From a bacterium (GTDB taxonomy: Bacteria; Armatimonadota; Fimbriimonadia; Fimbriimonadales; Fimbriimonadaceae), in NCBI GenBank assembly GCA_027483535.1, contig JAIXUN010000002.1, forward strand, positions 992,001 through 1,056,000: DNA of 64,000 nucleotides, given 5' to 3'. The translations under genes were made by a program, and so were the position numbers. A model generated the notes under the pieces. It did no database searches. It was not told the origin of the DNA and worked only from the letters and a program-made list of their open reading frames with translations. Positions within the stretch are counted from its first letter, which is position 1, and each line of letters opens with the position of its first letter. Shown here one piece after another: positions 10,844 to 58,549 of the stretch.

Positions 10844-10924
10844 TAAATATTCCCACGATTTGTTTTGGGAATCTTGAAAACCTTTGCTACTATGTTCTCT
10901 GATTTGGATTTCACCTTGGGGAAC

Positions 10925-34418: not shown

Positions 34419-34493
34419 GCCGATGTAGCTCAGCGGCAGAGCAGCTGTTTCGTAAACAGCAGGCCACCGGTTCAAATCCGGTCATCGGCTCCA
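34419..34493 (+). tRNA. tRNA-Thr (anticodon CGT), CCA encoded; prophage integration site
   Basis: Acceptor GCCGATG/CATCGGC, D arm GCTC/GAGC, anticodon stem GCTGT/ACAGC around TTCGTAA, T arm ACCGG/CCGGT around TTCAAAT, discriminator T, CCA at 34491-34493. A possible -10 (TATATT, 34377-34382) lies upstream. The integrase gene begins 55 bases beyond the 3' end, so this tRNA is the likely attB/attL. The matching attR copy would lie outside the window. Confidence 0.96.
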
Positions 34494-34547
34494 TTTTTTG
34501 AACCTAAAACGGTTCTCGGCACGCACTGGGAAGGCGCGTTTTTGGGG

Positions 34548-35603
34548 TTACTGTCCCTTTACTGTCCCTTTTGATTTTTGTTCTACATGTTTTGAAATTT
34601 GTCGTTTTCGAGAGACAAACCCGTAGACATCCAGAACAAGTTTTGAGTCTTTGTGACCAGCCCAGGACTTAGCCACATCGACCGGAATCTCTCGTTCGGC
34701 CCATTGGGTGATGGCCCAACGGCGAAGAGAGTAGGTCTGAGGGTTCGGGACGAGACCTGCTCGGACACAGGCTTCTCGCCATCGTTGAGAAACCCTCGAC
34801 TCGCGCAGTTTGAGTCCTTCCTTGCTCTGAAAGAGAAGCCCATCCTTCTCCCGAAGCCGGTTTCCAAGGTCCTCCGAGATCGGCACGAACCGACCGGCTC
34901 CGGCCTCGGTCTTTGACTCCCGGACGTGAACGAAGAAAGTTCCGTTCTCGTAACCGAGATCATCGGATGTGAGATGAACTGCCTCTTTCCAAGGTCGAAG
35001 GCCAGACTCCGCAAGGAACTGGAAGAACAAGCGAATTTCAGGGTCTCGAACGTTCAGGAGAATTCGTTGCAACTCTTCCTCGTCGTTGATGCGAACGATC
35101 GTGCTCTTCGAATATTTCGAGAACATGAACTTCACGCCCGCGAGAGGGTTCGAAGCGACGGCTCCTCGTAGAACTCCGAACTGGAAGATCAGTGAGAATA
35201 CGCTCTTCAAGATTCCTGCTGAGCGGGCGCTCTCCTTTGCTCTTCTCGTTAGCCACTCGTGAAGTTCTGGCAATCGGATGTCTCCGACCATGGTGTCCCC
35301 AAACATCGCATCGATCTCCTTTACGGCACCTCGGTAGCTACGGAGGGTTTTGGGCTTCAGGGTGGTTTGGACAGACGAAAGCCATATGCCCGAAAGCTCG
35401 CGCACACTGGCTGTAAGCGCTGGTGCGTTTCGACCTTGAGCAATCAGGTACGCCTCGCGCTTTGCAAGTGCTCCCTTTTTGGTCTTTGCTGTGAAGTTCT
35501 TCACTGTCCTTGTCCCATCTGGCCGGGTGAGGGTAAGCCTCACCCGATACAACCCATCCGAACGCTTGTGCCCTTCACCATTAGGCCGCCTTCTTGCCGC
35601 CAT
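34548..35603 (-). CDS. int: Tyrosine recombinase (prophage integrase)
   Basis: A 351-residue integrase. An N-terminal arm-binding region (GLYRVRLTL..DGTR) leads into a SAM-like core-binding domain (~65-160) and the catalytic domain. Catalytic Arg I is in ESGLRPWKE (about 205), box II reads TYSLRRWAITQW (about 295), then the His of WAGHKDS and the nucleophile in LDVYGFV (about 328). The first histidine of the usual HxLRH is a tyrosine here. It is the last gene of the leftward operon and abuts tRNA-Thr, as in phages that integrate into tRNA 3' ends. Its start overlaps the upstream gene by 23 bases. Confidence 0.93.
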   Translation of the reverse strand: MAARRRPNGEGHKRSDGLYRVRLTLTRPDGTRTVKNFTAKTKKGALAKREAYLIAQGRNAPALTASVRELSGIWLSSVQTTLKPKTLRSYRGAVKEIDAMFGDTMVGDIRLPELHEWLTRRAKESARSAGILKSVFSLIFQFGVLRGAVASNPLAGVKFMFSKYSKSTIVRINDEEELQRILLNVRDPEIRLFFQFLAESGLRPWKEAVHLTSDDLGYENGTFFVHVRESKTEAGAGRFVPISEDLGNRLREKDGLLFQSKEGLKLRESRVSQRWREACVRAGLVPNPQTYSLRRWAITQWAEREIPVDVAKSWAGHKDSKLVLDVYGFVSRKRQISKHVEQKSKGTVKGQ

Positions 35604-35793: not shown

Positions 35794-36271
35794 TGGTGAT
35801 CGCCTCCTTCGCTCTTCGAGAGTGTGACGGTTTCACACGATCCCGACCGAGGATCTCGCCGATGTCCTTCATCTCAAGGGCGGCAACAATCCGCTCGCGG
35901 AGGACCTTCCGAAGAGCCTCGTTGATCCTAATCGCCTCGAGCTCCACTGGAGCGTTCGGTTGCGGCTTCAGGAGGCACCAGTCATAGAAGACTTCCAGAA
36001 GCGCCTCGGCTCTGGTTAGCCGACCGTAGACGTCTGCCTCGGCCTTTTGTCGCTCGGCGGCTTGGATTGCTTCGACAAGGTCCACGACACCCATCAGCTT
36101 TTGTTGCGAAGAGTCGTCAAGGCTGCTGATCACGTTATCGAAGCGGTTCACTGATGCAAGAATTTCTCTCGTATCCATGACCAGAGCTAGGCCCTTAACG
36201 ATGCAATACTGCAAGTAAGTAACCATTGCTTTACCGTTTCTTTTGGGGCTAGGTAGGTGATAAAAGATCAT
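35786..36271 (-). CDS. Prophage protein of unknown function
   Basis: Not recognised. It has 161 residues, is mostly helical, with ERQKAEADVYGRLTRAEALLE suggesting a short coiled coil, and a basic C-terminus (HSRRAKEA). The start overlaps the methylase-like gene stop (ATGA), which supports translational coupling. A later ATG at 36178 would give a 130-residue form lacking the odd N-terminus. Confidence 0.6.
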   Translation of the reverse strand: MIFYHLPSPKRNGKAMVTYLQYCIVKGLALVMDTREILASVNRFDNVISSLDDSSQQKLMGVVDLVEAIQAAERQKAEADVYGRLTRAEALLEVFYDWCLLKPQPNAPVELEAIRINEALRKVLRERIVAALEMKDIGEILGRDRVKPSHSRRAKEAITNA

Positions 36272-37083
36272 GCTGCCGCCTCGAAGTTGAACGATCCTTG
36301 GACCGTTTCGAACACGTATCGGACCTCATCGTCGGGGATGGCCGATGGTTGCGCGACAATCGCCTCTGTGGCCGATCCAGGAGCGATAGCGGACCACCAA
36401 TGCATGTTGCGCCACGTTCTCCGCACTTCGAGCGACAGGGCGTTGCCTTGGATGATCTGCGCGGGAATCCCATAAAGGGTCGTGTTGATGATCGCCATCT
36501 CGTAGGCGAGCGGCGAGACATCGATGAGTGTCGCCTTCATGTTCCTCGGGCTGAGTCTGTGGTCGACCAAGTGCTGTGCGACGGCGAGCACCATCCCGCC
36601 CGAACCGGACGCGGGCTCCAATAGCGTGAACGGTCGATCCTGGGGGATCTGCGGCGGGGTGCCAAGAAGCATGGCGGCGGATGCACGGGAGAGGCTCCAG
36701 GGAGTGTAGAACTCGCCAAGATCGCGCTGGGCCGCCTTGGTGGACGATACCTCCATGTGCATCGGACCAAGGACGTCGGCGAAGTCCGCGACCTCCATCG
36801 CCTCCACGAGGAAAGCGAAGGCCTTCGGCAGATGGGCCGCCCCGTTCGGATGGAAGCGTTCGGCTTCCTTCAAGTACTCCGCCTCGCGCATCCCAAGGCT
36901 GAGACTGCAAGCAGCCATCGTTACGAAGGACCGGAATGTCTCGGGAAGACTGAGACCGGACGGTCGACCTGCATCCTCCAGGATGGAGATCATCTCCTTC
37001 GTGAAGGCGCTGTGGTCTCCCGTGGAGATCGAGCGGAGGCGGGAATCCCGCCTCTCAACTTTCTTGCGCTCAGTGGCGTTCAT
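36268..37083 (-). CDS. N-6 DNA methylase-like protein without a catalytic NPPF motif
   Basis: A 271-residue protein resembling the SAM-binding half of HsdM-type adenine methylases. DLGEFYTPWSLSRASA and EPASGSGGMVLAVAQHL (motif I) are clear, followed by an acidic motif II region (LIDVSPLAYEMA) and LYGIPAQIIQGNAL. The expected (N/D)PP(Y/F) motif IV after the last stretch is absent; ALSLEVRRTWRN follows instead. The same arrangement occurs in a known set of prophage/plasmid 'N-6 DNA methylase' proteins, so this is not simply a broken gene. It may bind SAM or modify something else. ATGA overlaps on both sides place it in the leftward operon. Confidence 0.75.
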   Translation of the reverse strand: MNATERKKVERRDSRLRSISTGDHSAFTKEMISILEDAGRPSGLSLPETFRSFVTMAACSLSLGMREAEYLKEAERFHPNGAAHLPKAFAFLVEAMEVADFADVLGPMHMEVSSTKAAQRDLGEFYTPWSLSRASAAMLLGTPPQIPQDRPFTLLEPASGSGGMVLAVAQHLVDHRLSPRNMKATLIDVSPLAYEMAIINTTLYGIPAQIIQGNALSLEVRRTWRNMHWWSAIAPGSATEAIVAQPSAIPDDEVRYVFETVQGSFNFEAAA

Positions 37084-37984: not shown

Positions 37985-38727
37985 TAGATCTTCTCTCCGT
38001 CGATCTTGAGCTCGCACTTGTCCGGCTCGGTGACCCGAGCGATTCCAGGCACCTTCCCCTTGTCGATGAGTGCAACGATCTTCTCGGGGATGGCGCTCGT
38101 CTTGACCGAGTAGGTCACCGCATCGACCGCCTTCTTCCTGAGCAGGTATTTCGCTGCCAGGGTCGCGTCGTTCACGACCAGCTTTGAAGAGCCTTTTCGG
38201 AGTGAGATCGAACCGCCAAGGAGGTCGAGAGTCCGCTTCGTGGACGTCCCGAGCTTTCGCAGGGCGAATTCTTGCAACTGCTCTCGGTAGAAGCAGGCAA
38301 AAAAGGTGACGGCGTTTCCGGCGCGCTTTTCGATTTTCGCGGCCTGTTCGATTTCCATGCGGATCTCAAGACCATCAGCGGACTCAAGGGCGCGAGATAC
38401 GGCGTTATCGACGAGACCTTTGAGCGCTTCTTCGGCCCGTGTCCGCTGGAGGACGGCTGCCTTCTTGCGCGCAAGATGGTGCCGCACCTTGCGGAGGATC
38501 CATTCGGCAAAGGCCTCGGTGATGCCCGGCGCCTTGCCCTTGGCTCCCTTCTCGTAGAGCGGCTCTCCAAGGTCGGGACCGTCGGCCACGCCAACGATCT
38601 CACCTGTGGTCGGGTCGACCCAAAGACCGTCCTGAAGGATGGGCTCAATTGGGGTGACGATTGGTTCGGAAGATTCGATCAGCTCCAGAGGGGCTTGATC
38701 GAGAACGGTAGTAGTGGTTTCGTCCAT
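37984..38727 (-). CDS. Gam-like host-nuclease inhibitor protein
   Basis: A 247-residue protein. The C-terminal half matches the Mu Gam-like pattern: a helix rich in Lys/Glu, TLDLLGGSISLRKGSSKLVV, then DATLAAKYLLRKKAVDAV and the ending VPGIARVTEPDKCELKID. Gam-like proteins bind double-stranded DNA ends and block exonucleases such as RecBCD. The N-terminal ~70 residues are acidic and specific to this protein. The helicase stop lies 13 bases before ATG 38727; that gap holds no Shine-Dalgarno, and codons 4-7 carry an ACCACTACT element. Confidence 0.72.
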   Translation of the reverse strand: MDETTTTVLDQAPLELIESSEPIVTPIEPILQDGLWVDPTTGEIVGVADGPDLGEPLYEKGAKGKAPGITEAFAEWILRKVRHHLARKKAAVLQRTRAEEALKGLVDNAVSRALESADGLEIRMEIEQAAKIEKRAGNAVTFFACFYREQLQEFALRKLGTSTKRTLDLLGGSISLRKGSSKLVVNDATLAAKYLLRKKAVDAVTYSVKTSAIPEKIVALIDKGKVPGIARVTEPDKCELKIDGEKI

Positions 38728-38740
38728 TGTTTTAACTCGG

Positions 38741-40033
38741 CTAATTGCCGAAGACTTGGCGATGCCATTCGGCAACGCGGGGGTGGATTCGGACGTCCTG
38801 CGGTCGCAGAGGACGTGAGATGGTCATGGTCTCAAAGTGGCGACATCGAGACAGGGCGACGTAGGTCTGCCCAGCGGCGAAAGCCCATCCAGGGATTTGG
38901 ATATGCACCTTGTCGAGGGTCATCCCCTGGGACTTGTGCACGGAAATGGCGTAGGCGAGCTTGAGGGGAATCTGCGAATAGCAGACGATCCCTGCTTGTT
39001 CATCCACGAAGAGGTCACCGGTCGCGTCCTGCCTGATTGGCGATATCTCCCATGTGTGTGGGAAGAGCTCGTACTCTTGACCGCGATCAAAGCGGACGAC
39101 CACTGACTCGGACTTCAGTGCGATCACCGTCCCCAAATCGCCGTTGTAGAACCTCGGTTCGTCGAACATGCTAGGAGGCGGATCGTTGATTACGGCCACA
39201 ACCCTGCACCCGACTTTCAGCCGAAGTTCGCGCGGGGCGGGCACATCGTTCTCGTTGATTGAGCCGACCGTGACCCCGTTGTAGACCTTCGCCTCGCCCG
39301 AGAGAACCATCAGCTCATTCACGTTGATGTCGATGGCCACCTGGTTGTGGAAGCAGAGCTTGATCGCGCCCGTTTCGGGGACTTGTCCGGCTCTTTTGTT
39401 CAAGAACGCGAGAGCAGAGTTGTCGCCGAGCCGTAGCCGGTTGAGAGCATCGGTGAAGCAGTCGTTACCTTGTTGCCGGAAGACCTTCGTTAGCTGGACG
39501 TACTCGGGCCGTGAGCCTTGCCACACGAGCGAGTCGAACCAGTAAGGCGAGGTGTAGCCACGCTTATCGAAGTAGTCCCGCTCGATACCTTCTCTAGGAA
39601 GCACGGGCTCAAGCTGGAAGTGATCACCGATGCAGAAGATACCGATTCCGCCGAACGGCTTCGGGCTATCGAATGTAACCCGCAGGTCACGGTCCATGCG
39701 GTCCATGGCGTCCGCACGAAGCATGGATATCTCGTCGATCACGAGAGCGCCTGCTTGTTCGAGAAGTCGCCGATGGCTTCGTTTGAGTTGCTTCACGCCC
39801 GTCTCGCCCGGTCGCCATCCGAAGAACTTGGAGACGGTCATGCCGCCGACGTTGATCGCAGCGACGCCTGTAGGAGCCAAGATTGGAACCTTCGGCTTCT
39901 CTCGAAGGAACTGCCGTAGGTTGGTGGACTTGCCGGAACCCGCGTTGCCGGTCTGGTAGCCAAGGCCGCCTTCGGAGGCGACCTTGTGCATAAGCTCCAG
40001 CCCGACTTTCTGCTCGTCGGAAAGGGCGATCAT
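38741..40033 (-). CDS. PIF1/RecD-like ATP-dependent DNA helicase
   Basis: A 430-residue superfamily 1 helicase. Walker A GNAGSGKST is near residue 38, the TGVAAINVGG motif follows as in PIF1, and Walker B is VIDEISML. C-terminal motifs include AISVHKSQGMTLD and YVALSRCR. It unwinds DNA 5'-3' by family analogy. It is coupled by ATGA overlap to the upstream SSB-like gene and is followed by the Gam-like gene, making a recombination/replication module like the lambda left arm. Confidence 0.88.
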   Translation of the reverse strand: MIALSDEQKVGLELMHKVASEGGLGYQTGNAGSGKSTNLRQFLREKPKVPILAPTGVAAINVGGMTVSKFFGWRPGETGVKQLKRSHRRLLEQAGALVIDEISMLRADAMDRMDRDLRVTFDSPKPFGGIGIFCIGDHFQLEPVLPREGIERDYFDKRGYTSPYWFDSLVWQGSRPEYVQLTKVFRQQGNDCFTDALNRLRLGDNSALAFLNKRAGQVPETGAIKLCFHNQVAIDINVNELMVLSGEAKVYNGVTVGSINENDVPAPRELRLKVGCRVVAVINDPPPSMFDEPRFYNGDLGTVIALKSESVVVRFDRGQEYELFPHTWEISPIRQDATGDLFVDEQAGIVCYSQIPLKLAYAISVHKSQGMTLDKVHIQIPGWAFAAGQTYVALSRCRHFETMTISRPLRPQDVRIHPRVAEWHRQVFGN

Positions 40034-40554
40034 TTCAGCTCTTCGGCAGCCTTCTTGACGCCCTCGATGTAGACCTGGACGCCCATGTTCGCGTAGGCCT
40101 TGATCTGGTCAAGATCGGTTTTTCCGATCCCATTGCAGAGTTCGAAGGCAGACTTCACGACGCCCGCTATTGCCGAGGCGTGGATCTCCTGCGGGGTTCG
40201 GACGTATCCACCGCCACCTCCGCGACCGTTTCCGCCCTTCTTGCCTTGGTAGGCCTCTTTGGCTTTGCCGTTCCAGGACTGGAGCGAGTAGAAGAACTTG
40301 CGGTCGTTCTCTTTGTCGACGACCTTCTCAACGGTGATCTCGCCAACCTGATCGTCAGGGAAGTCCTCTGCGGTCCAGGTGTTGACGTCGGCGTACACAT
40401 CGATCTTGTCCACTGGGAGTTCAATGCCGTCGATTTCGCTGACCTTGAAGGTCACCTGGTGGGTTTTCTTGCCCTCTGCTGCGGCCTTGAAGACTCGGAC
40501 GGTGGCTTTCGCCTTGAAGGTGATGTTCTTGCTTGTAGTGGTGTTTTCGCTCAT
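40030..40554 (-). CDS. Candidate single-stranded-DNA-binding (OB-fold) protein
   Basis: Not firmly recognised. The 174 residues divide into a beta-rich N-terminal domain (~10-98, ending FFYSLQSWNGKAKEAYQG), a glycine-rich hinge (GGNGRGGGGG) and a helical C-terminal domain. A beta-barrel followed by a Gly-rich linker, plus the position just before a helicase, suggests an SSB-like role. No classical acidic SSB tip is present. There is no Shine-Dalgarno; ACCACTACAA occupies codons 5-8. Confidence 0.55.
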   Translation of the reverse strand: MSENTTTSKNITFKAKATVRVFKAAAEGKKTHQVTFKVSEIDGIELPVDKIDVYADVNTWTAEDFPDDQVGEITVEKVVDKENDRKFFYSLQSWNGKAKEAYQGKKGGNGRGGGGGYVRTPQEIHASAIAGVVKSAFELCNGIGKTDLDQIKAYANMGVQVYIEGVKKAAEELK

Positions 40555-40556
40555 GG

Positions 40557-40934
40557 TTAGAGTCCGTTTTCTTGTCGTTCGATTTGAGGCGAGAGGCCTC
40601 GGTCCCGCAGGTATTCCCGGCGGCTTGCCTGAGCGTTCGCCCAGAGGTTTCCGGCCATCAGTCCGGCAAGGAGCATCGCCAGGCCGAAGGCACCGATCTT
40701 CGAGAGATCGGGCTTGGCGACGATGTGATGGGTGTGGGTGATCTCCCGGATGGGTAGTGGTACGAAGTTGCCATCGTCCATCCGGTCGATCTGGTCGGCA
40801 AGCCTGAGAAGCCCCTCAGGCGCAGGAGGTAGTTCGAGGGTGGCTTGGCGAATGAACATTCGCTGTTCCTCGGTGGAGAGCTCGCGGAAATCCCTGCGAA
40901 CCTTGTTAAAGTAAGTGCTCGCAGGTTGGCTCAT
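40557..40934 (-). CDS. Prophage protein with C-terminal membrane helix
   Basis: Function unknown. From ATG 40934 (GGAGGAGC four bases upstream, also overlapping the upstream stop) it has 125 residues. A helical, charged N-terminal region is followed by a hydrophobic segment at ~82-102 (IGAFGLAMLLAGLMAGNLWA) and a basic C-terminal tail. It is probably a single-pass membrane protein. Confidence 0.6.
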   Translation of the reverse strand: MSQPASTYFNKVRRDFRELSTEEQRMFIRQATLELPPAPEGLLRLADQIDRMDDGNFVPLPIREITHTHHIVAKPDLSKIGAFGLAMLLAGLMAGNLWANAQASRREYLRDRGLSPQIERQENGL

Positions 40935-41293
40935 AGCTCCTCCAGGGTTTCGGCGATGGCGCACTCGGCGCAGGTGAACAAAAGCGTTGCCCCATCGGTC
41001 GATGGTCGCTGGTTGGTGATTCGGAAGACGGCGCTCGCCACAATCACGTCATGCGAGACGCGGAAGACGCCGGGAATGCGCAGGAAGTAGGAGGTCTGGC
41101 TCGGGTACATCTTCGATGGTCCCCAGTTAAGCTTCGCGCTGTATGGGCCGATCTCGACGTCTTCCACGCCCTTCGCTCTGCCTGCCCGAACGGCCTCAAC
41201 GGCTAACTTCCAGGCGGCCCGAATCCCTCGGGCCATTTCGAGCGCCTCGGGAGTGAGCCTCCCGAGTGCGGTGGAGGTTACGGTTGCTCTCAT
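40931..41293 (-). CDS. Prophage protein of unknown function
   Basis: Not recognised. The start is ATG 41293, overlapping the upstream stop. The apparent longer frame back to 41566 runs across the real upstream gene and the promoter. The 120-residue product has a helical N-terminus and a mixed C-terminal half with one CxxC (FTCAEC). Confidence 0.55.
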   Translation of the reverse strand: MRATVTSTALGRLTPEALEMARGIRAAWKLAVEAVRAGRAKGVEDVEIGPYSAKLNWGPSKMYPSQTSYFLRIPGVFRVSHDVIVASAVFRITNQRPSTDGATLLFTCAECAIAETLEEL

Positions 41294-41508
41294 CGAGCCA
41301 CCTCTGCGCCAAGTTTGGCGAGGATTTCTTCCGGAGATTCCTTGACCTCGTAGTTGCCGGTCACGAGGAAGATTCTCGTGAAGACTTCGCCCTCGACCTT
41401 TAGTTGCGGGCCGAGCGAGCAGACTTGCTCCGCGTTGATGAAGACCGGCTTTCCGTTCTCGGTCGTCAGCTGAATGTAGAAGGGCTTGGTTGTAGTGGTG
41501 CTTGGCAT
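41290..41508 (-). CDS. FlbD-like small protein, first gene of the leftward operon
   Basis: A 72-residue protein whose pattern (QLTTENGKPVFINAEQV, then VTGNYEVKESPEEILAKL) resembles the FlbD fold, a small domain also found in phages. No function is known. It is the promoter-proximal gene of the leftward operon, ~23 bases after the predicted start site. Codons 4-7 hold ACCACTACAA. A weak GGAG lies ~12 bases upstream of the ATG. Confidence 0.6.
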   Translation of the reverse strand: MPSTTTTKPFYIQLTTENGKPVFINAEQVCSLGPQLKVEGEVFTRIFLVTGNYEVKESPEEILAKLGAEVAR

Positions 41509-41537
41509 CTTCTTCTCCGCCTGTCGGCTTGAGAATG

Positions 41538-41566
41538 ATTATGCAACAATATGCAAAACTATGCAA
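41538..41566 (-). promoter_or_regulatory. Leftward early promoter (PL-like)
   Basis: On the minus strand TTGCAT (41566-41561), a 17-base spacer and CATAAT (41543-41538) form a good sigma-70 promoter that drives the int-gam operon. Both hexamers are part of the operator repeats. Confidence 0.75.
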
Positions 41567-41576
41567 GCAAATACAA
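41541..41576. repeat. Operator array, four ATGCAA half-sites at 10-bp period (OL-like)
   Basis: ATGCAA begins at 41541, 41551 and 41561, and ATACAA at 41571. The period is exactly one helical turn, so all sites face the same side of the DNA. The array covers the -35, spacer and -10 of the leftward promoter. A matching array lies at 44651-44690 by the repressor gene. Confidence 0.8.
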
Positions 41577-41683
41577 GAAGATTATTTTCGCGGACAAGGG
41601 CACGAGGTCGTCACGCAACTTCCTTTCTGTAACCCGATGGCACGGACGAGGCCTCGCAATGTAAGGTTTATCCGAGGAATCTG

Positions 41684-42832
41684 ATGGAAGCAGACAAGTC
41701 GTTCTCGGAGTTCATGGTCGCCGCTGAAGCGATTCTCGGGCGTAGGCCAAATCCTGACAGAGCCTATGAAGCGTTCACGCAAGGGGTGAGCCCTGAAGTT
41801 TTCGCTAGGTCGCTACCCAACGAGCCCCTGATCGAGAGCAACAAATCCACATATCCTCCAGAGCCGGACACTGCGCCATCGGAAGTCCCTTCCGATGTAG
41901 AACTGCCTAGACCGTGGGCATCTGTGACTTCATCCGAGAAAGGGTTGCTTATAACTCTGGGCGTTATTCTCCTTGTGGTGCTTGTGTTCAGCATCTGGAT
42001 TCCAAATGAAGCGGCTTCTATAGCTCAGCGAACTTCATCCCAGCTCGAGGTCGCCACAGTGTCATCTCCGCGAATTACGGAGGCTAAGGAAAAACTTCAG
42101 AACGCGATCAAATCCAAGGATGCCCAAAGACTCCAGAGTGCGTTAGCAAATGCCAAAGCAATCGATCCCGGAAGAAGTGATAAGGACCTTCAGAGTCTAA
42201 CCTCTAAGGCCCAAGCCCTTTTTACGCCCCTCGAATCATCTTGGAAGCAGGCGAAACGGGAAGAATTGCGCAGGGAGGAAGCAGCTCTAGTTTCAGCGCT
42301 TGAGAAGGCTACAAGAGAAAAGAACAAAGATTCGATTACTGTCGCCCGTTCGAAATCGGACGCTTTCAAAGCTCGGGTAGGGCAAGTAACGCCTGCGCAT
42401 GCAGCCGCTCGTTCGGGCGCTGAACGAATGCTGGCGCAAATATCCGAAGAGGAAGAGCGTGCGTCGATGAATACCTACGAAGGTTCTCCCGTTGGAATAG
42501 CCGTAGGCAACCTGGAGATCCGACGGTCCTTTGATGGCTACTCGTTTGACGGAAACGGTCGGTTCGTAAGTGTATTTGTATCTGCAGTCAACTCAGGCGC
42601 GGACTCCGAACACATTAATCCAACAAACTTCACTCTTGAAACCGAGGATGGGTACACAGTCCCATATTCAGCGCACACTTTCTCGAGCAGCCGACCCCTG
42701 GAGGCCGTCAACATCGGACCAGGCGCGACGACGTCCGGGTGGATCGTTTTCGAGTCCGTCCTATCGAGGCGGTACAGGCTCATCCACCAGCCGATTGGCG
42801 GGGAACGCGTGGTGAAGGTGCTGGTGCCCTAG
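41684..42832 (+). CDS. Membrane-anchored protein with coiled coil and DUF4352-like domain
   Basis: A 382-residue protein. An N-terminal cytoplasmic segment precedes one membrane helix (~86-106, GLLITLGVILLVVLVF). A long charged helical/coiled-coil region (~120-260) follows, then a C-terminal immunoglobulin-like domain of DUF4352 type (VGNLEIRRSF through SGWIVFE). GAGGA lies ~8 bases before the ATG. It is transcribed away from the early operon, inside the immunity region, and is less GC-rich than its neighbours. It may be expressed in the lysogen and alter the host surface, which is inference. Confidence 0.6.
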   Translation: MEADKSFSEFMVAAEAILGRRPNPDRAYEAFTQGVSPEVFARSLPNEPLIESNKSTYPPEPDTAPSEVPSDVELPRPWASVTSSEKGLLITLGVILLVVLVFSIWIPNEAASIAQRTSSQLEVATVSSPRITEAKEKLQNAIKSKDAQRLQSALANAKAIDPGRSDKDLQSLTSKAQALFTPLESSWKQAKREELRREEAALVSALEKATREKNKDSITVARSKSDAFKARVGQVTPAHAAARSGAERMLAQISEEEERASMNTYEGSPVGIAVGNLEIRRSFDGYSFDGNGRFVSVFVSAVNSGADSEHINPTNFTLETEDGYTVPYSAHTFSSSRPLEAVNIGPGATTSGWIVFESVLSRRYRLIHQPIGGERVVKVLVP

Positions 42833-42880
42833 AGTGGGTGTGGCGGTTGTTGGGATCGTGAGCTAGTACAGGCGAGGATC

Positions 42881-43366
42881 TTAAGAGTCCTTCCGCTTGG
42901 ACGTGATCACTTCCAATTTGGGCCAGATTTCATTTGGAGAGAGGTGCCGAGCGATTGCCAGCATATCTTCCGACGCGCGGTCAAGGCATTGTTTCAGCCC
43001 TTCGTACGACTCTTGGATTTCGTAGTCTGCCCACTTGCGGCGGCCAAACGATCTAAAGCCCTTGACTGCAACGTCCTCAAGTCCGTGGTGTCGAGAGTAA
43101 GAGCTGTCGATAAACCAGTTCCAAACGTCGGTATGCCCCGTATCGTCGGCTAAGGAAAAGTCCCTTGCTTGCGCAAACGATCGGGCCATCAGAAAGCTCG
43201 CGTAATAGCATCGACGCGTCGTTTCCCTCAGGTAGAACTCGACGACCTCGTCCCTATCTTCTTGCGATAACGACGTGCTTCTTAACACAGTGTCTATTAG
43301 ACCGAGTGTGGCAAAGTGAGATTTAAGGGCGATTTGGGAGTAAGAACTAACCGAGATCATTGCCAA
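42881..43366 (-). CDS. Immunity-region protein of unknown function
   Basis: Not recognised. The 161-residue product is helical and rich in Arg, Tyr and Trp, with no membrane segment. It overlaps the end of the upstream gene by 20 bases; a second Met at 43360 is an alternative start. The pair sits downstream of the repressor on the same strand, where superinfection-exclusion or defence genes are often found. Confidence 0.5.
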   Translation of the reverse strand: MAMISVSSYSQIALKSHFATLGLIDTVLRSTSLSQEDRDEVVEFYLRETTRRCYYASFLMARSFAQARDFSLADDTGHTDVWNWFIDSSYSRHHGLEDVAVKGFRSFGRRKWADYEIQESYEGLKQCLDRASEDMLAIARHLSPNEIWPKLEVITSKRKDS

Positions 43367-43709
43367 AGACCGAAACTATCGTTCTTTGGAGTCTATCACG
43401 AAGGCCGCTTTCTCGTGTCTGCCGAGCCCACGCTACGTACCTTGCGTCAACCTCTGGTGTCGGCAGGTCCGAGCACACGGTGATCATCAGTACGGATCCA
43501 GAATAGTCAGAGATCAGTTGGAGCTTGATGTGTCCTGGTTGAAACATCGCAGCTAGGATCGGAAGAGCTTCTGCTACCGCAGTTGCCAACTCAGGATTCG
43601 CTACCAAATGGGCCGATGTGTATCGGTCTGGATCGCAAAGATGCATCGGCAGACCGCTAGGGTTTGTGATGTCATTTAGGTATTCCTGAGTGAAATTCAT
43701 GCTGCGCAA
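43347..43709 (-). CDS. Immunity-region protein of unknown function
   Basis: Not recognised. It has 120 residues (117 if ATG 43700 is used), a mixed alpha/beta pattern with a buried-looking GHIKLQLISDYSGSVLMITV core and a basic C-terminal helix. No catalytic motif is visible. It is lower in GC than the early operon genes. Together with the overlapping downstream gene it may form a two-protein unit. Confidence 0.5.
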   Translation of the reverse strand: MRSMNFTQEYLNDITNPSGLPMHLCDPDRYTSAHLVANPELATAVAEALPILAAMFQPGHIKLQLISDYSGSVLMITVCSDLPTPEVDARYVAWARQTRESGLRDRLQRTIVSVFGNDLG

Positions 43710-43756
43710 GAAAGAATGCTTTTCTGTTCTTCTCCCTTAAAAGAGTTGGCTGTCTC

Positions 43757-43787
43757 CCTTTACTTTACAATAGTGTGAAGTAAAAGG
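43757..43787. promoter_or_regulatory. Imperfect inverted repeat between repressor and downstream gene pair
   Basis: CCTTTACTTTACA (43757-43769) and TGTGAAGTAAAAGG (43774-43787) are near-complementary arms with one insertion and one mismatch. It could be a terminator after the repressor gene or an operator for the 43709 promoter. No clear T tract decides it. Confidence 0.35.
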
Positions 43788-43906
43788 TGCCCAGTTTTTC
43801 CATTAATGTCCTGAGATATCTAGTGGCGAAAAAGGCGCATATTCTTCGATTTTCTCGCTCAATCTCCGATATTCGACTCTTCCGTCTCGTTCCCATTGAC
43901 CTGCAA

Positions 43907-44650
43907 TCAGAGCCTTGTACGAGGCCCAATACCCTTCTTGCTCACCCGCAGATCGTCGAACGAATCGCCGAGACCCCACGAGACCGCGATGCAGTAGCCC
44001 TTCACCTGCCATTCGCTTAATGGGAGCGTCTTCCCGTCCGCGCCTTGGATCAGGCTGCCGAAGTTGGGATCGATCCAGCCGATCAGCTCGGTCTCAGGAT
44101 CGGCCCTCGAGACGAACAACAGGTAGACGTCTTCGGACGGATAGTCCACTTCCGTGAAGGCGATCACGGATCCTCCCCTGATGTTTTGGAATGAGTTCTT
44201 AACGTGAACTATTCGGCTGGCCGCCCCCAGCAAGGCGCTTAAAGTTCTCTTCACCGTGCTCAAACCCTTTGCTGACCACGGAACGCCCACCTCGACGCTC
44301 GGTGCATCGACCGTAATGGTCTCGCCGGTTAGGAGCCTGTCGAGGAGGTCAGACCGCGCGCTGTCCTCTCGGTCCTTATTATAGTAGACATCTGTCTGTG
44401 TCTTGGCGGGTGTGGATAACTTTTCGTCCAGATCTCGAATCAGAGCAAGCGCTTCATCGACCCACGGCTTATTGGTACTCGGGCGCTTGGACTTGCCGGA
44501 GAGCCTTCGACTCAGGGTTGAAGGATCCATGTTCACCTTCTCGGCGAGCCACGAGGTTGTCCGGCCATGTTTGACCAGCCCATCTTGGATCACCTTCACT
44601 TTCTCGTTGAAGTCCACAACCTCAAGAGAATAATGAGAAAATGCAAACAT
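43907..44650 (-). CDS. XRE-family prophage repressor (CI-like)
   Basis: A 247-residue regulator. The N-terminal HTH is visible at ~19-45 (GRTTSWLAEKVNMDPSTLSRRL). A linker and a C-terminal domain (GSVIAFTEVDYPSEDVYLLF, IQGADGKTLPLSEWQVKGYCIAV) are reminiscent of the S24/LexA-like fold. I cannot identify a catalytic Ser/Lys pair, so self-cleavage is uncertain. It is divergent from the rightward early operon across an operator array, exactly the lambda cI position. The start at ATG 44650 lies just outside the main array. Confidence 0.8.
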   Translation of the reverse strand: MFAFSHYSLEVVDFNEKVKVIQDGLVKHGRTTSWLAEKVNMDPSTLSRRLSGKSKRPSTNKPWVDEALALIRDLDEKLSTPAKTQTDVYYNKDREDSARSDLLDRLLTGETITVDAPSVEVGVPWSAKGLSTVKRTLSALLGAASRIVHVKNSFQNIRGGSVIAFTEVDYPSEDVYLLFVSRADPETELIGWIDPNFGSLIQGADGKTLPLSEWQVKGYCIAVSWGLGDSFDDLRVSKKGIGPRTRL

Positions 44651-44690
44651 GCCTGTGCATGATATTGCATATTCGTGTATAGTCTTGCGT
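44651..44690. repeat. Operator array, four degenerate ATGCAA half-sites at 10-bp period (OR-like)
   Basis: Read on the minus strand the four decamers begin ACGCAA, ATACAC, ATGCAA and ATGCAC at exact 10-bp steps. A further ATGCAA at 44641, in the same register but opposite orientation, falls in the first codons of the repressor gene. The array matches the one at 41541-41576 in sequence, spacing and relation to the promoter. Confidence 0.75.
44655..44683 (+). promoter_or_regulatory. Rightward early promoter (PR-like), probably leaderless
   Basis: GTGCAT (44655-44660), a 17-base spacer and TATAGT (44678-44683) mirror the geometry of the leftward promoter. The ATG at 44692 is 8 bases after the -10, so the first gene would be translated without a leader. 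Confidence 0.6.
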
Positions 44691-45006
44691 GATGACCGAA
44701 ACCCTAGGATATTTGCCTGGGCGTCCTGGCCCGAAAAGGAAGCTCGCGCTAAGGGAGATAGCGGAGTTATGTGCCCGTTGGAACGCTCCCGGTGCTAACC
44801 GTAGCGCCTTGGCGCGTGCCTTTGGAATGAGCCCTTCCGGTGCCTACAGAGCGGTTCTTCGCTATCTCAAAGAAAAGGAGGCGGAGGGTTCAGATCCCAC
44901 TACGAACCTCGCCCTGCCGCCGATAGATCAGAGCCCTGCAGTGCTCCTCACTTTAGAGGATGGTACCTGCCCTGATGCCGTAGGGAACGGCTCCCTCGCA
45001 GCATGA
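44689..45006 (+). CDS. Small HTH protein in the cro position
   Basis: A 105-residue protein whose middle part forms a helix-turn-helix (NRSALARAFGMSPSGAYRAVL). It is the first gene of the rightward operon and starts at GTG 44689 or, more likely, ATG 44692. There is no Shine-Dalgarno, as expected if the mRNA is leaderless. The C-terminal tail is acidic/Pro-rich. By position it may be a Cro-like antagonist or an activator; no close family was recognised. The stop overlaps the next start (ATGA). Confidence 0.65.
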   Translation: MMTETLGYLPGRPGPKRKLALREIAELCARWNAPGANRSALARAFGMSPSGAYRAVLRYLKEKEAEGSDPTTNLALPPIDQSPAVLLTLEDGTCPDAVGNGSLAA

Positions 45007-45215
45007 ATACCACCACTACACATCCCACTTACGACCCGCGCCATTTGCGCAATTTGCAATACCGTTCCGCCGAGGCTCTCCTTGAAATCAAAGGCGCTTC
45101 CACCGACGGCACGAAGATCGGCGACGCCTTCGAACGACAGTTCGAGATGGTCACCGAATACATCACCGCGCTTGAGAAGCGCGTGCACGAATGCCGAGAG
45201 GCGGCCAATGCCTGA
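45003..45215 (+). CDS. Small prophage protein of unknown function
   Basis: Not recognised. The 70-residue product is mostly helical with a C-terminal amphipathic segment (FEMVTEYITALEKRVHECREA). It starts within the upstream stop (ATGA). Codons 3-6 carry the ACCACTACA element, encoding Thr-Thr-Thr. Eight bases overlap the next gene. Confidence 0.55.
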   Translation: MNTTTTHPTYDPRHLRNLQYRSAEALLEIKGASTDGTKIGDAFERQFEMVTEYITALEKRVHECREAANA

Positions 45216-46428
45216 GAACTGCTTCCTAACCCCTCGCACGATCTTCAAGGGCGAGACTTCTTTGCAGGTCACCGCTTTGCAGGCCCTGCGCTCGGAGTGC
45301 AAGTACCCCCACCTGTTCGACTCGGCGATTAACGAGATGTGCTCGACCCTTGTCGGGCAGCTGGAAGGCAAGCACAGCGAGTTCGTAAAGAACCTCATCG
45401 AGAGGCTTGGACTTGAAGGAGAGGCTTGTGAGACTTCCGTGCTGATGGAGGTTTCACAGCTGGTCGCCGATATCCAGAAGCTGGTAGTCGATGAGGAGCA
45501 AGCCCTCCAGAAGGCAGAGCAGGACCTGTGCGCCCGCTTCCTGGCGTTGATGGCACTTCGTGTCCACGAGCCTGAGGACTTCACCCCCGAACGAGTGGAT
45601 GAGGATATCAGGGCGCTGAAGAAAGACCGCGAGGTGCTTTATGCGTTCCGGGCGGATACAGCGGATATTGCAGGTTACAACACGAGTGGCAGGCTGCCCG
45701 ACTTCGATGAGTGGAAGAGAATGGTCACCGAGGCGCTGGTCGGATTTAAGGCGATCATCAGCCTAAAGAAAGACCCTGCCTCGCTCTACCCAGATCAAAG
45801 GGCTTACAGCGACGTCTTCGAGTTCTTCAAAGAGCTGATCAAAGAACGCGACGCGCTCCGAGAAGAGAACGAGAAGCTGATCGAGGCAGATCGGGAGTTC
45901 CGCAACGCGCTGTCCGAGTTGTTCCACAAAGAGTTCGACCCCGAACTCGCGTCCGCGAACATGCTTTGCCAAGCTGTCGAGGCTCGGATCGACGAGAACG
46001 AGTCCCTGAAGAAGGACCTCGAAGCTGCAAAAGCACAGATCGAAGCATTTGAGCGAGTAGGCCAGGGCGGCGAGAAGCCTCCCGCGCCGGTCGTGATCGT
46101 GGCGAAAGTCGAGCCGAAGAAGCCCGCACCCGCTCCTGGGCGACCAAAGAAAGCGGAGGCTCCCCCGAGGGTGTCCCTTCCAAGTTGGAACTACGTGACC
46201 TCGCCGGAAATCATGGTCGAGTACGTCCGCGTTCGAGCAAACGGCATGGACCACGCGCGTGCCTGTCGGGAAGCAAACGTGGAACCAGCCGAGCGAACCA
46301 CCGTGAGCGCCAACATGGCAACCACGGTCCAGCGGGCAAAGGAGTACTCGGGCGTCGAGCGTGAGGAATACCTCGCCAACCTTCTTGAGCGGTGGCGCGT
46401 TCGGGCGTCCATCCGGAGGGCGGCTTGA
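45208..46428 (+). CDS. Coiled-coil prophage protein of unknown function
   Basis: Not recognised. It has 406 residues from ATG 45208; the longer frame back to 45082 overlaps the upstream gene out of frame. It is a helical protein with a strong coiled coil (~205-285, KERDALREENEKLIEADREF and onward). A Pro/Lys/Ala-rich hinge follows, then a C-terminal ~95-residue domain that may bind nucleic acid (VRVRANGMDHARACREANV). Position before nuclease and helicase genes suggests DNA metabolism; this is inference. Confidence 0.6.
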   Translation: MPENCFLTPRTIFKGETSLQVTALQALRSECKYPHLFDSAINEMCSTLVGQLEGKHSEFVKNLIERLGLEGEACETSVLMEVSQLVADIQKLVVDEEQALQKAEQDLCARFLALMALRVHEPEDFTPERVDEDIRALKKDREVLYAFRADTADIAGYNTSGRLPDFDEWKRMVTEALVGFKAIISLKKDPASLYPDQRAYSDVFEFFKELIKERDALREENEKLIEADREFRNALSELFHKEFDPELASANMLCQAVEARIDENESLKKDLEAAKAQIEAFERVGQGGEKPPAPVVIVAKVEPKKPAPAPGRPKKAEAPPRVSLPSWNYVTSPEIMVEYVRVRANGMDHARACREANVEPAERTTVSANMATTVQRAKEYSGVEREEYLANLLERWRVRASIRRAA

Positions 46429-46544
46429 ACTCCGAAGTCGGGGCGGTCCTTGCGGGGATCGCCCTCCTTGCCATCTTGGTGATCCTAGTCTCGATCTTCC
46501 TCGACCATCTAGCCGAGATCGTCCGGCAGGAGACGAGGCGATGA
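46425..46544 (+). CDS. 39-residue single-pass membrane peptide
   Basis: A short gene with good translation signals: GGAGGG 8 bases before TTG 46425, which overlaps the upstream stop (TTGA). The stop TGA overlaps the next ATG. The peptide is almost wholly one membrane helix (AGIALLAILVILVSIFLDHL) with a charged end (ETRR). Overlaps on both sides make chance unlikely. Function unknown. Confidence 0.65.
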   Translation: MNSEVGAVLAGIALLAILVILVSIFLDHLAEIVRQETRR

Positions 46545-46750
46545 CGCTCGATCAGCTGCAGAGCCTAAAGCTCGGGCGACAATTCCGAGGGCTGTATTCA
46601 AGAAGGGTCTACACGGTGACCCGCGTGGAGAACTCGACCAAAAAGGGCACAAGAGTATTTGCTAAGACGGACGCCTTCGACAAGGAGTTTGAATTCACGG
46701 CGGACAGTCCACTTCGCTTTTACGAAGTGATCGAGGAGTCGGCGCGATGA
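46541..46750 (+). CDS. Small prophage protein of unknown function
   Basis: Not recognised. The 69-residue protein is beta-rich (FRGLYSRRVYTVTRVENS) with basic patches. It starts at ATG 46541 within the upstream stop and its own stop overlaps the ASCH gene. The longer frame from 46361 is out of frame with the real upstream gene. Confidence 0.55.
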   Translation: MTLDQLQSLKLGRQFRGLYSRRVYTVTRVENSTKKGTRVFAKTDAFDKEFEFTADSPLRFYEVIEESAR

Positions 46751-47301
46751 AGGCGATCTCCATCTGGCAGCCGTGGGCCTCAGCCATTGCGGTTGGGACG
46801 AAGCACTACGAGACGCGTTCTTGGGAATTCCCCAAGTCAATGGAGGGCGAGATTATTGCCATCCACGCCTCGAAGCGTTGCCAAGGTGAAGAGCGTGAAC
46901 TAGCAACGGAACTTCGGTTCTTCGGTATCAACATCGGTTTTGAGCCGTCCACTGAAAAGCCTCCCCTAGGGTCCATTGTCGCCGTCGGTCGGCTTGTCGA
47001 ATGCGTTTATACCGAGGCCCTTTATGGGGACTGGTTTGCGCCTTCATACAACATGGACAACCCTCGCGAGGTCGAATATCTTCTTGGCAATTTTGCGCCG
47101 GGAAGATTTGCCTGGAAGCTAGAAGACGTTGTCCGACTCGCTCCGATCCCGTGTATTGGTCGCCAGGGGTTCTGGAACCTTGAGCCAGAAGTAATTCGAG
47201 CAATCAGGGAGCAGGCGATCATCGACACCTGTCCTTTCTCTGGGCGGCTATGTCACCCAGGGTGTGATCGCCTCATGTGCGGGAGGGCGTCGGGCTCATG
47301 A
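46747..47301 (+). CDS. ASCH-domain protein
   Basis: A 184-residue protein with an N-terminal PUA-like ASCH domain: ISIWQPWASAIAVGTKHYETRSW, then IIAIHASKR and IVAVGRLVECV. ASCH domains bind or process RNA; the E. coli member YqfB hydrolyses N4-acetylcytidine. Phages often carry ASCH proteins of unknown role. The C-terminal region has four cysteines in a CPFSGRLCHPGCDRLMC cluster that could bind zinc, an uncommon addition. It is coupled on both sides by ATGA overlaps. Confidence 0.8.
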   Translation: MKAISIWQPWASAIAVGTKHYETRSWEFPKSMEGEIIAIHASKRCQGEERELATELRFFGINIGFEPSTEKPPLGSIVAVGRLVECVYTEALYGDWFAPSYNMDNPREVEYLLGNFAPGRFAWKLEDVVRLAPIPCIGRQGFWNLEPEVIRAIREQAIIDTCPFSGRLCHPGCDRLMCGRASGS

Positions 47302-47531
47302 CCATACTCCAGTGGGCGAACGGTGGGGACGGCCACAGTTACGGGTTTTCAAACGACGACACAACCCCTGTCGCTATGACCACACCTGATGCAAGGATAT
47401 GGGTGACTGGCTTCGGGACCGTGTACCTGCCGCCGAAACTGGTCCTCATTCAGCGCCAGAAGCAAGCCATTGCCAGCCTCCTGTACTGCCACCTGATCGG
47501 CGAGATCGACCTAGAGGAGATCCAGCGGTGA
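47298..47531 (+). CDS. Small prophage protein of unknown function
   Basis: Not recognised. It has 77 residues from ATG 47298, overlapping the ASCH gene stop; the GTG of the next gene overlaps its own stop. The central segment PPKLVLIQRQKQAIASLLYCHLIG looks like a helix that could interact with a partner. Confidence 0.5.
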   Translation: MTILQWANGGDGHSYGFSNDDTTPVAMTTPDARIWVTGFGTVYLPPKLVLIQRQKQAIASLLYCHLIGEIDLEEIQR

Positions 47532-47944
47532 GAGTCCTCCAAATCCGCATCCCTGTCCCAAAGGAACATGAGGTCCAAGCCGCCATCGTGGATGCTCTTC
47601 GCCTAGCGGGTTGCACCGTTCGGGAGACGACCGCCTACCGCCAAAAAGGATCGTCCGGTGTGGACAAGGGGATTCCCGACCTCCTCGTTTACGTGCCTGT
47701 CCAAGACGGCCCGAAGGTCTACATCGGGCTGGAGGTCAAGCGAAACCACGACGCCAGGGTCACCCCTGAGCAAAAGGCAGCGATTGCGAACGGCGAGTAC
47801 TCCATCGTGACCACCCCCGAGGAAGCCTTGCGGGCAATCGAGAAAGAACTCTGGAACATGTGCATTCTCCCTTCCCAGCGCGGGGACAGGATCGCTAATG
47901 TCCTAGCCGGACTAGCCGAAGGGTCGACCCACTACCGCCCCTGA
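47528..47944 (+). CDS. VRR-NUC domain nuclease
   Basis: A 138-residue stand-alone VRR-NUC protein of the PD-(D/E)XK class. Motifs are EHEVQAAIVDALRLAG, the SSGVDKGIPDLLVYVP stretch with the catalytic Asp, and YIGLEVKRNH (E-x-K). Phage members cut branched DNA such as Holliday junctions, so it may resolve replication or recombination intermediates. The start is GTG 47528 (overlapping the upstream stop). An ATG at 47399 would add 43 residues in the shadow of the previous gene. Confidence 0.85.
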   Translation: MRVLQIRIPVPKEHEVQAAIVDALRLAGCTVRETTAYRQKGSSGVDKGIPDLLVYVPVQDGPKVYIGLEVKRNHDARVTPEQKAAIANGEYSIVTTPEEALRAIEKELWNMCILPSQRGDRIANVLAGLAEGSTHYRP

Positions 47945-47967
47945 AGCCTGACTGAAACACCACTACA

Positions 47968-49812
47968 ATGAACAATCTTTTCGCAGAAGAGCGGCCACCG
48001 CTCCCGCAGGTGATCCTGCGGCCCTATCAACAGCAGATGGTGAATGCTTGGCAGGCGTTCATCGACAAAGGCGGACAGCGAGGTCTGATCATCGCCGCGA
48101 CCGGAGCAGGGAAGACCGTTCTCTTCTCCTCGATCGTTCGAGCGATGGCAGAAAGCGACCTCGGCTTCACTGCGCTCGCCCTGGCGCACCGGAAGGAGCT
48201 GCTCGAGCAAATCGCCGGGACGATGGACAAGATCGCTCCACACCTGAACTGCTCCATTCACTCAGGGGACCTCAAGGCGGACCGAATCAGTAGAGTCGTC
48301 GCTGCCTCGGTTCAGTCCTTGGCGATGCCAGGGTCCGAAGCCCTTCAATGGCTCGCACCGAACCTCGTGATCTGCGATGAAAGTCACCACGCCGCTGCGG
48401 ACTCCTATCAACGGGTGTTCAGCCGGTTCGGTTGCTACGACGAACCCGGTACCTACCTGCTCGGTGTGACCGCCACTCCCCACCGCCTCGACAATAAGGC
48501 ACTCGTTGGATCCGCAAGTAAGGCGATCTTCGAAGAGATCGTCTTCCGCTACGACATCGTGCAGGCGATCAAGGACGGGTTCCTCGTGGACCTTCGCGGA
48601 TACCGAGCCCAAGCGGACGTCGATCTCTCCAAGGTTAAGACCAGAGCTGGCGAGTACGTCCAATCCGACTTAGAGGAAGCGATGAACGTGGACCCGGTCA
48701 ACGAACTCGCGTTGCGAAGTTGGAAGGATGCCGCCGCCGGAAGGCAGACGATCATCTTCTGTTCGGGCGTCGACCACGCCAAGAAGGTAGCCGAAGTCTT
48801 CCGAGAGGGAGGTATCGCCGCAGAGGCGATCTACGGGGATATGCCGCGCGTCGAGCGGGAGGCTGCCATTGAGCGGTTCCGAGCCGGAAAGACCACCGTG
48901 CTCACGAACATGGACATCCTCACCGAAGGGTTCGACTCCCAGGCTTGCTCCTGCGTCGTGATGCTTCGGCCCACGAAGTCTTGGTCGCTTTTCGTCCAGA
49001 TGTGCGGGCGGGCGCTCCGGGTTCTACCGGGCGTCATCGATGGACTCGACAACGCGCCATCCCGACGGGAGGCCATCTCTCGCTCACAAAAGATCGACTG
49101 CCTCGTTATCGACATCGTTGGTCTGACATCCTCGCACCAGCTCACGGCCAAGGCGAACGGTCAAGGTGATCCGTGCCTTAATGCCCTCGTCGGGCTGCCG
49201 AGCGAGATGGATCTCGAAGGGCGCTCCGTGGTCGAGGCTCTCGAAGAGTTCGAGGAACTCCCCGAGATCGTCAAGGCAGCGGCCTTCCGCCGCAAGACGT
49301 CGTTCTCGGGGCTATCCGCCGTTCTCACGCAAGTGGAGATGCTCGCCGAGATAGAACCGCCCGAGGAGGCGGTCGAGGCGGGAGCGGACCTCTACTGGAT
49401 GAAGATCGGCGACAGCGACTACATCGTCGACTGTGGAACGTCTCCGCAGGGAATCGCCCGTTCTGCGGCGATCTCCGCCGATCTGCTCGGCAACTTAACC
49501 CTTCGCCTGTCGAGCGGGGACAAGTCCGAAGGGCGGGCGCTTCGGGATCAAGAGTTCGAACTCGACTCAGACCTGCAGGTCGCCTTCATTCAGGCGGAGG
49601 CGATCATCCAGAAGAACTTCTTCGGAGTCGCTCGTCTCGCCTCGCGCAAGGCGCAGTGGAGACTTGGTTCACCGACGCAAGCTCAGCTGAGCTATCTCAA
49701 GTCCTGCGGGATCCACGAAGACGTTCTCCACACCCTGACCAAGGGGACCGCTTCGGCGATGATCGGGATGCTCCGGCGGAAGGGAATCGGCCCGCAGAAG
49801 GAGGTGGCGTAA
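47968..49812 (+). CDS. DEAD/DEAH-type superfamily 2 helicase
   Basis: A 614-residue SF2 helicase of the SSL2/RadD-like type. The Q-like RPYQQQMVNA precedes Walker A AATGAGKT. Then come DESHH (motif II), GVTATPHRLD (motif III) and the helicase C domain with TEGFDSQACSCVVMLRPT and MCGRALRV. The last ~180 residues are specific to this group. It probably remodels DNA during phage replication. There is no Shine-Dalgarno and a 23-base gap from the upstream gene; ACACCACTACA abuts the ATG. Confidence 0.85.
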   Translation: MNNLFAEERPPLPQVILRPYQQQMVNAWQAFIDKGGQRGLIIAATGAGKTVLFSSIVRAMAESDLGFTALALAHRKELLEQIAGTMDKIAPHLNCSIHSGDLKADRISRVVAASVQSLAMPGSEALQWLAPNLVICDESHHAAADSYQRVFSRFGCYDEPGTYLLGVTATPHRLDNKALVGSASKAIFEEIVFRYDIVQAIKDGFLVDLRGYRAQADVDLSKVKTRAGEYVQSDLEEAMNVDPVNELALRSWKDAAAGRQTIIFCSGVDHAKKVAEVFREGGIAAEAIYGDMPRVEREAAIERFRAGKTTVLTNMDILTEGFDSQACSCVVMLRPTKSWSLFVQMCGRALRVLPGVIDGLDNAPSRREAISRSQKIDCLVIDIVGLTSSHQLTAKANGQGDPCLNALVGLPSEMDLEGRSVVEALEEFEELPEIVKAAAFRRKTSFSGLSAVLTQVEMLAEIEPPEEAVEAGADLYWMKIGDSDYIVDCGTSPQGIARSAAISADLLGNLTLRLSSGDKSEGRALRDQEFELDSDLQVAFIQAEAIIQKNFFGVARLASRKAQWRLGSPTQAQLSYLKSCGIHEDVLHTLTKGTASAMIGMLRRKGIGPQKEVA

Positions 49813-55527: not shown

Positions 55528-55864
55528 TTTAGGCTTTTATGCCGGTTCGACCGCCGAGAAGGTGGAGATTTACCGCTTGTGTCGCAACAAGGGGATTCTC
55601 ACCACGGGCGAGTTTTATCTGTTCACCTTTCTTGCGGTGTCTCATCTCACTTCGGAGGTGGTCGCCCCGATCAGTACGTTCGAGCGCACCCTGCGTTCTC
55701 TCAGCCCGGAAGTGGCGGACGTGTACGAGAACCACATGGGCGAGATGTTCGAACTCATGAACCATGCGTACAAGCAGCACTTCGGAGCACCTTGGCGTGT
55801 CTACGAGGAGTTTTTGGAAGACGGGCTTCTTGAGACCGAAACCGTAGCTGGGAGGGTCGCATGA
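55472..55864 (+). CDS. Prophage protein of unknown function
   Basis: Not recognised. The 130-residue product is helical and acidic with several aromatic residues and no membrane segment. The start at 55472 has AGAGG ~10 bases upstream and lies within the end of the Arc-like gene. The stop overlaps the antirepressor start (ATGA), so the three form an operon. Confidence 0.55.
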   Translation: MSVLTIPSETTVHHQLKSDLGFYAGSTAEKVEIYRLCRNKGILTTGEFYLFTFLAVSHLTSEVVAPISTFERTLRSLSPEVADVYENHMGEMFELMNHAYKQHFGAPWRVYEEFLEDGLLETETVAGRVA

Positions 55865-58545: not shown

Positions 58546-58549
58546 ACAA

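Follow-up and report, generated by a model that had tools for sequence, protein, structure and literature searches.

Two overlapping genes that follow the repressor-like gene of an Armatimonadota prophage encode a HEPN protein, assigned by profile and model fold to the HEPN-T family, and a partner new to that family. The pair is reasonably likely to be a putative lysogen-expressed, toxin–antitoxin-like abortive-infection module that the prophage carries as defence cargo. The DNA analysed here, called the window, is a stretch of 64,000 nucleotides that lies on contig C1 of a genome of 3.77 Mb. The three open reading frames of the original prediction were all found in it, at the positions given, and code for a membrane protein of 382 aa, gene 2 of 161 aa and gene 3 of 120 aa (Table 1). 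Genes 2 and 3 overlap by 20 nt with the TTG start listed for gene 2 and by 14 nt with its internal ATG, in keeping with the tight overlap described for them. The membrane gene and gene 2 show a modest coding signal and gene 3 almost none, and in each case the frame is the best among its six. The three proteins have no match in phages by tblastn, gene 2 has none in plasmids, and a single-protein scan of viral contigs gave no close relatives.

Table 1. Features of the prophage and its immunity region, numbered from the first nucleotide of the window unless the genome is named
Feature	Position	Strand	Basis or remark
attL	34445..34496		52-bp repeat, 3' part of tRNA-Thr
tyrosine integrase	34548..35603	-	Pfam PF00589 E 1.5e-13; phrog_1 E 1.6e-42
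putative left operator	41540..41566		three TATGCAA direct repeats, 10-bp phase (41540, 41550, 41560)
membrane protein, 382 aa	41684-42832	+	ORF, DUF4352, hydropathy
gene 2, HEPN-domain protein, putative RNase toxin/effector, 161 aa	42881-43366	-	alternative ATG at 43360
gene 3, 120-aa partner, alpha/beta, putative antitoxin/sensor	43347-43709	-	ATG at 43700
26-bp dyad TTTACTTTACA-ATAG-TGTGAAGTAAA	43759-43784		upstream of pair; putative autoregulatory operator
repressor-like gene, HTH	43907..44650	-	weak phrog repressor matches, best PHROG 'transcriptional repressor' E 0.002
putative right operator	44641..44671		ATGCAAA ... TTGCATA (heptamer at 44665)
HTH protein, first gene of rightward early region	44689..45006	+	weak HTH matches
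attR	genome C1:1080563-1080614		identical to attL; outside window

The prophage extends about 54 kb rightwards from position 34445, its first 29.5 kb lying inside the window, with identical att repeats of 52 bp at genome positions 1026445-1026496 and 1080563-1080614. PHROG matches to helicases, a sigma factor, terminase, portal, a MuF-like head protein, tape measure and tail proteins are distributed in it, and the prophage is complete in outline. The DNA from 38000 to 48000 of the window has no match in phages. An N6 DNA methylase-like gene lies in the left arm (36268-37083, minus strand; Pfam PF02384 E 1.9e-9). The gene at 54341-55153 on the minus strand, which matches the PADLOC candidate defence family PDC-S48 (E 1.6e-10) and nothing in Pfam, is by this match another possible defence cargo of the prophage. 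A Bro-N/KilAC antirepressor gene lies to the right of the early region (55861-57078, plus strand); three relatives of it are found near the HEPN cassette of a prophage in genome G025. After the tape-measure gene, outside the window (L084:13774-15462, genome C1:1069774-1071462), genes for a 202-aa unknown and an HTH-Peptidase_M78 (ImmA/IrrE-like) protein make up what looks from its sequence like a second toxin–antitoxin-like pair, at the tail position that HEPN pairs use in other phages. Two small adjoining ORFs at 58228-58837 on the plus strand resemble a RelBE-type pair by eye and have no Pfam match at E 0.1. Nine overlapping copies of an AAAAGCAAACG-like repeat with a period of 11 nt, which is not a multiple of three, lie within an ORF at 50158-50325.

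As claimed, the trio sits between the leftward early genes, which start at 41508, and the rightward early genes, which start at 44689. The gene order also bears out the lambda-like layout, in which the lysogeny region holds accessory genes, and the pair does follow the repressor-like gene on the same strand, about 200 bp downstream of it. TATGCAA or TTGCATA occurs five times in the 64 kb, and four of these occurrences fall between the divergently oriented genes on either side of the immunity region; putative operators through which a single repressor acts at both early promoters would be placed in this way, although the nominal p of 6e-10 is optimistic because the motif was picked by eye. In the dyad upstream of the pair, 10 of 11 arm positions are paired, which was equalled in 4 of 300 shuffles. 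Since this dyad differs from the repressor operators, the pair is probably not simply the tail of the repressor operon, and it may be read in that way as well as from a start of its own linked to the dyad. A promoter and terminator scan gave nothing above chance. The expected lower GC content was also seen, with 53.0% in the three-gene block and 51.5% in the pair, while the part of the window that belongs to the prophage has 57.5%; no more than 4% of equal-sized prophage windows have a GC content as low.

Gene 2 scored 47.8 bits when compared with a profile made from nine homologues, the window being left out, and the best of 200 shuffles reached 5.3 bits. A single-protein scan of the genome contigs gave only two loci. 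L011, from another genus of the window's bacterial family, is a relative of gene 2 (E 4e-4), and a two-sequence HEPN profile reached nine more genomes in the phylum. Within this bacterial family, all three HEPN copies are surrounded by genes of phage type. The homologues L011 (23.8 against a gathering score of 22), L014 and L018 pass the PF05168 gathering score; PF05168 is not listed at E<=1 in a single-sequence Pfam scan of gene 2. PADLOC gives for gene 2 only HEPN_IX (E 0.0078), with no model convincingly matched. An AlphaFold (AF2) model built from 13 sequences (pLDDT 86.3) has AF0298 (2hsb) as its top fold match, with Z 12.1 and 2.7 Å over 120 residues. HepT toxins come next with nearly equal Z, the fold-match probability being 1.00 for 7bxo and 5yep, and HEPN proteins fill nearly all of the top 25 rows. 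The nearest solved chains by sequence profile are 9xbd/9xbc (HEPN domain-containing), 2hsb and the retron-Kva2 HEPN protein, the last with an E value of 0.0011 for the HEPN profile. The earlier description of the pair as soluble unknowns thus no longer applies to gene 2, a HEPN protein by both profile and fold.

The canonical Rx4-6H RNase motif is absent from gene 2, which has RKWADY instead. Residues E43, R47, Y54, Y55, H78, R110, D114 and Y115 (window numbering) are invariant in 10 Armatimonadota sequences, and all but E43, namely R47, Y54, Y55, H78, R110, D114 and Y115, are also invariant when 12 viral homologues are included. Gene 2 keeps an alternative site made of His78 and Arg110 together with Tyr54-Tyr55. 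In a described sub-class of HEPN-T marked by the lack of this motif, and in AbiV, D takes the place of H, and another conserved His, located on the N-terminal side of the motif, could serve as an alternative site (Anantharaman et al. 2013, PMC3710099), and 2hsb is an example of the D-for-H HEPN class with a conserved H elsewhere (PMC3710099). Mutations of the retron-Kva2 HEPN protein have shown that H64, R122 and Y40-42 are required for defence against phage T5, and RNA profiling suggests tRNA degradation by this system (PMC13405049, preprint). In the profile alignment, the His, Arg and Tyr that this family conserves fall at these retron-Kva2 positions. The retained alternative site and the retron-Kva2 mutants together make RNase activity of gene 2 a well-founded prediction.

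The HEPN gene is the second of a pair in its relatives, and the first gene ends close to the HEPN start in both Armatimonadota and viral loci. A co-directional gene ends -20 to +10 bp from the HEPN start in 20 of 20 viral loci, and a gene lies directly upstream of the HEPN gene in all nine intact Armatimonadota loci, a pattern that is weak by itself because adjoining upstream genes are common in phages. Two kinds of partner were seen, short alpha/beta proteins of 110-200 aa and longer proteins of about 260-330 aa that look helical-repeat-like by eye, many of them in phage tail regions. No similarity was detected between the two kinds. When seven short partners were made into a profile, none of the 221 control ORFs scored as high as the held-out L020, L011 and L013 or, below these in rank, gene 3, L017 and L016, and gene 3 obtains 9.2 bits (E 0.015) against a profile of the seven other short partners. 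A wider, noisier partner profile gives gene 3 4.7 bits, with 7.3 bits for the best shuffle. We take gene 3 to be probably a short partner of divergent sequence. The gene 3 model (pLDDT 72) consists of helix, helix, two strands, helix and strand; its fold search gave weak, mixed matches that serve as a lead only (ribosomal S3 KH domain, Z 7.5; TdT/polymerase mu palm, Z 6.9), and no nucleotidyltransferase (MNT) family match was found in Pfam or NCBIfam. At two Armatimonadota loci and one viral contig (L015:180-932, L016:2444-3181, L059:2710-3594), a third gene with the common motif PPI.E...E..F....W..T.P precedes the partner–HEPN pair; its product presumably resembles TIGR04255.

The membrane protein has an N-terminal DUF5419-like domain (aa 1-45), a transmembrane helix, a charged helical stretch or coiled coil, and DUF4352, in this order. 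The membrane anchor and DUF4352 that had been predicted were both recovered, with a mean Kyte-Doolittle hydropathy of 3.03 over residues 88-106 and a Pfam DUF4352 match at E 6.6e-9 (36.5 bits against a cut-off of 25.9). The N-terminal domain of about 45 residues occurs in 22 copies in 16 of 291 genomes of the phylum, all in the window's own family (L022-L057), fused to varied membrane or other parts and with three copies in tandem in G022. Where the domain stands alone, it matches phrog_519 (E 1.9e-7 and 2.7e-9) and, with scores short of the cut-off, DUF5419. By eye, the neighbours are often HTH genes, integrases, or ArdC-like, SIR2-like or AlbA-like genes, from which the domain appears to be associated with mobile elements and defence within the family. 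No relative of the DUF4352 protein was found in phages, and a literature search found no link between DUF4352 and superinfection. The membrane protein is probably a second putative lysogen-expressed cargo gene, and possibly a membrane component of the system of the HEPN pair.

Genes of these three kinds recur side by side in the G025 prophage (L011), with HEPN at 9347-9823, the partner at 9798-10202 and the membrane protein at 10365-10865. The G025 trio adjoins a tape-measure-like gene, and its membrane gene is divergent whereas that of the window is convergent. The two prophages are distantly related, with 37% identity for DnaB and 42-49% for antirepressor-like proteins. In G175 (L058), as judged by eye, the membrane gene is missing and the pair adjoins genes resembling those for terminase and portal. 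The two joint occurrences, in the window and in G025, point to a functional trio without proving it.

Several known systems are similar to the pair, which would work in the way of the HEPN-based abortive systems (Tha, the retron IX effector, HepT). The HEPN protein of the type IX retron (retron-Kva2, PMC13405049; PADLOC HEPN_IX) is likewise a non-canonical HEPN protein with a distant His and Arg and a Tyr motif, as seen when gene 2 is compared with it at RYYYACFLCIRTF / RCYYASFLMARSF, AHLDV / GHTDV and R...DYE. Its partner is an RT/msDNA/winged-helix complex, whereas gene 2 has gene 3, and a type IX retron was rejected because the single RVT_1 match of the genome is on contig C4, with none near the pair. 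The HEPN-MNT system (HepT-MntA) shares an upstream partner that overlaps the HEPN gene, and the gene 2 fold matches HepT; this candidate was rejected since gene 3 has no MNT family match and gene 2 no Rx4-6H. The Tha/Ith system resembles the pair in that tha is a prophage HEPN defence gene in the lysogeny region, that of S. aureus phage 80alpha, and in that the system includes an inhibitor gene (PMC11087260). Unlike gene 2, Tha is a single 301-aa protein with a canonical RNSIMH motif, and the Ith inhibitor is antisense-encoded whereas gene 3 is an upstream operon partner (PMC11087260). Lambda rexAB has the same place in the immunity region, after the repressor on the same strand, but is an ion channel and its sensor, where the window pair has a putative HEPN effector. 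Searches of Pfam, PHROGs and PADLOC at E<=1 gave no RexA or RexB family, and the idea that the pair are rexA and rexB counterparts has given way to a HEPN gene with an upstream partner. For AF0298 / UPF0332 we know of no characterised partner or defence role. This HEPN-T protein (2hsb) is the best fold match of gene 2 and falls in the same alternative active-site class (PMC3710099). The HEPN class is already known, and no characterisation of the pair, the partner or the host lineage was found in the sources searched.

We propose that gene 2 would act as the effector, namely as a HEPN RNase dimer with Asp where Rx4-6H has His. The distant His78 would work with Arg110 at the dimer cleft, and Tyr54-Tyr55 would be placed at the substrate. 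Gene 3 would be made first, translationally coupled to gene 2, and would keep gene 2 inactive and probably serve as the sensor. Transcription of the pair in the lysogen would start from its own promoter under the dyad, come by read-through from the repressor gene, or both. Infection by another phage would disturb gene 3, the toxic HEPN protein would then cut RNA, with tRNA as the best guess, and growth would halt before the invading phage multiplies. The exclusion or defence function first predicted for these genes gains from the assignment of gene 2 to HEPN, a class recurrent in toxin–antitoxin systems and phage defence, and from the presence of its relatives in prophages of the window's own bacterial family.

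The same anatomy of an upstream partner, an overlap and a dyad of its own would also fit a toxin–antitoxin addiction module that stabilises the prophage, in which prophage loss frees the HEPN toxin to kill or stall the cured cell and phage protection is incidental, and HEPN-MNT modules are established toxin–antitoxin pairs (PMC7641770). An integrated prophage, however, is inherited with the chromosome and has less need of addiction than a plasmid, and the relatives are exchangeable cargo in phage tail regions, which defence cargo fits at least as well; we consider addiction unlikely. A role of the HEPN protein as a regulator that binds RNA without catalysis, like the one proposed for MtlR, and that tunes the lysis–lysogeny decision together with gene 3, is very unlikely, since the H78/R110/Y54-Y55 set is invariant in the homologues and several of these lie in tail regions and not by a repressor. 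Such a role would agree with the immunity-region site beside the repressor and with the absence of canonical Rx4-6H; non-catalytic roles have been proposed for HEPN domains without active-site residues (PMC3710099), and some HEPN domains without the canonical motif may be RNA binders only. A mere position effect, by which unrelated host-fitness morons have gathered in a permissive spot, would account for the low GC content and the near-orphan sequences, but a HEPN effector family with a retained active-site set and a recurring operon form makes this highly improbable as well.

The part of the membrane protein can be judged separately from the abortive-infection reading of the pair. There is a slightly better than even chance that it is an independent surface or entry-exclusion protein, single-pass with DUF4352 outside the membrane and unlinked to the HEPN pair, which would be compatible with abortive infection by the pair. 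It is encoded on the opposite strand, where it would have its own transcript, its DUF4352 relatives L009 and L010 have no HEPN pair alongside, and only 2 of the 22 N-domain copies are beside one; against this, the G025 prophage repeats the neighbourhood of the trio. The opposite view, to which we give a rather low probability, is a three-component prophage immune system composed of an alternative-site HEPN RNase, a dedicated alpha/beta inhibitor-sensor and a single-pass membrane protein. The family-restricted cytoplasmic domain of the latter would dock the pair at the membrane and its DUF4352 outer domain would report phage entry, and the trio would move between prophages as one cassette.

With the assignment of a putative abortive-infection pair, two 'unknown' prophage genes become a HEPN module with named candidate catalytic residues. 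The family phrog_5176, whose function is unknown in PHROGs, would stand for uncharacterised phage-borne HEPN pairs with non-canonical sites, in which other partners replace MNT. To our knowledge, Armatimonadota phages have been little studied. The gene arrangement described here suggests that the lambda plan, with defence cargo in the lysogeny region, extends to Armatimonadota.
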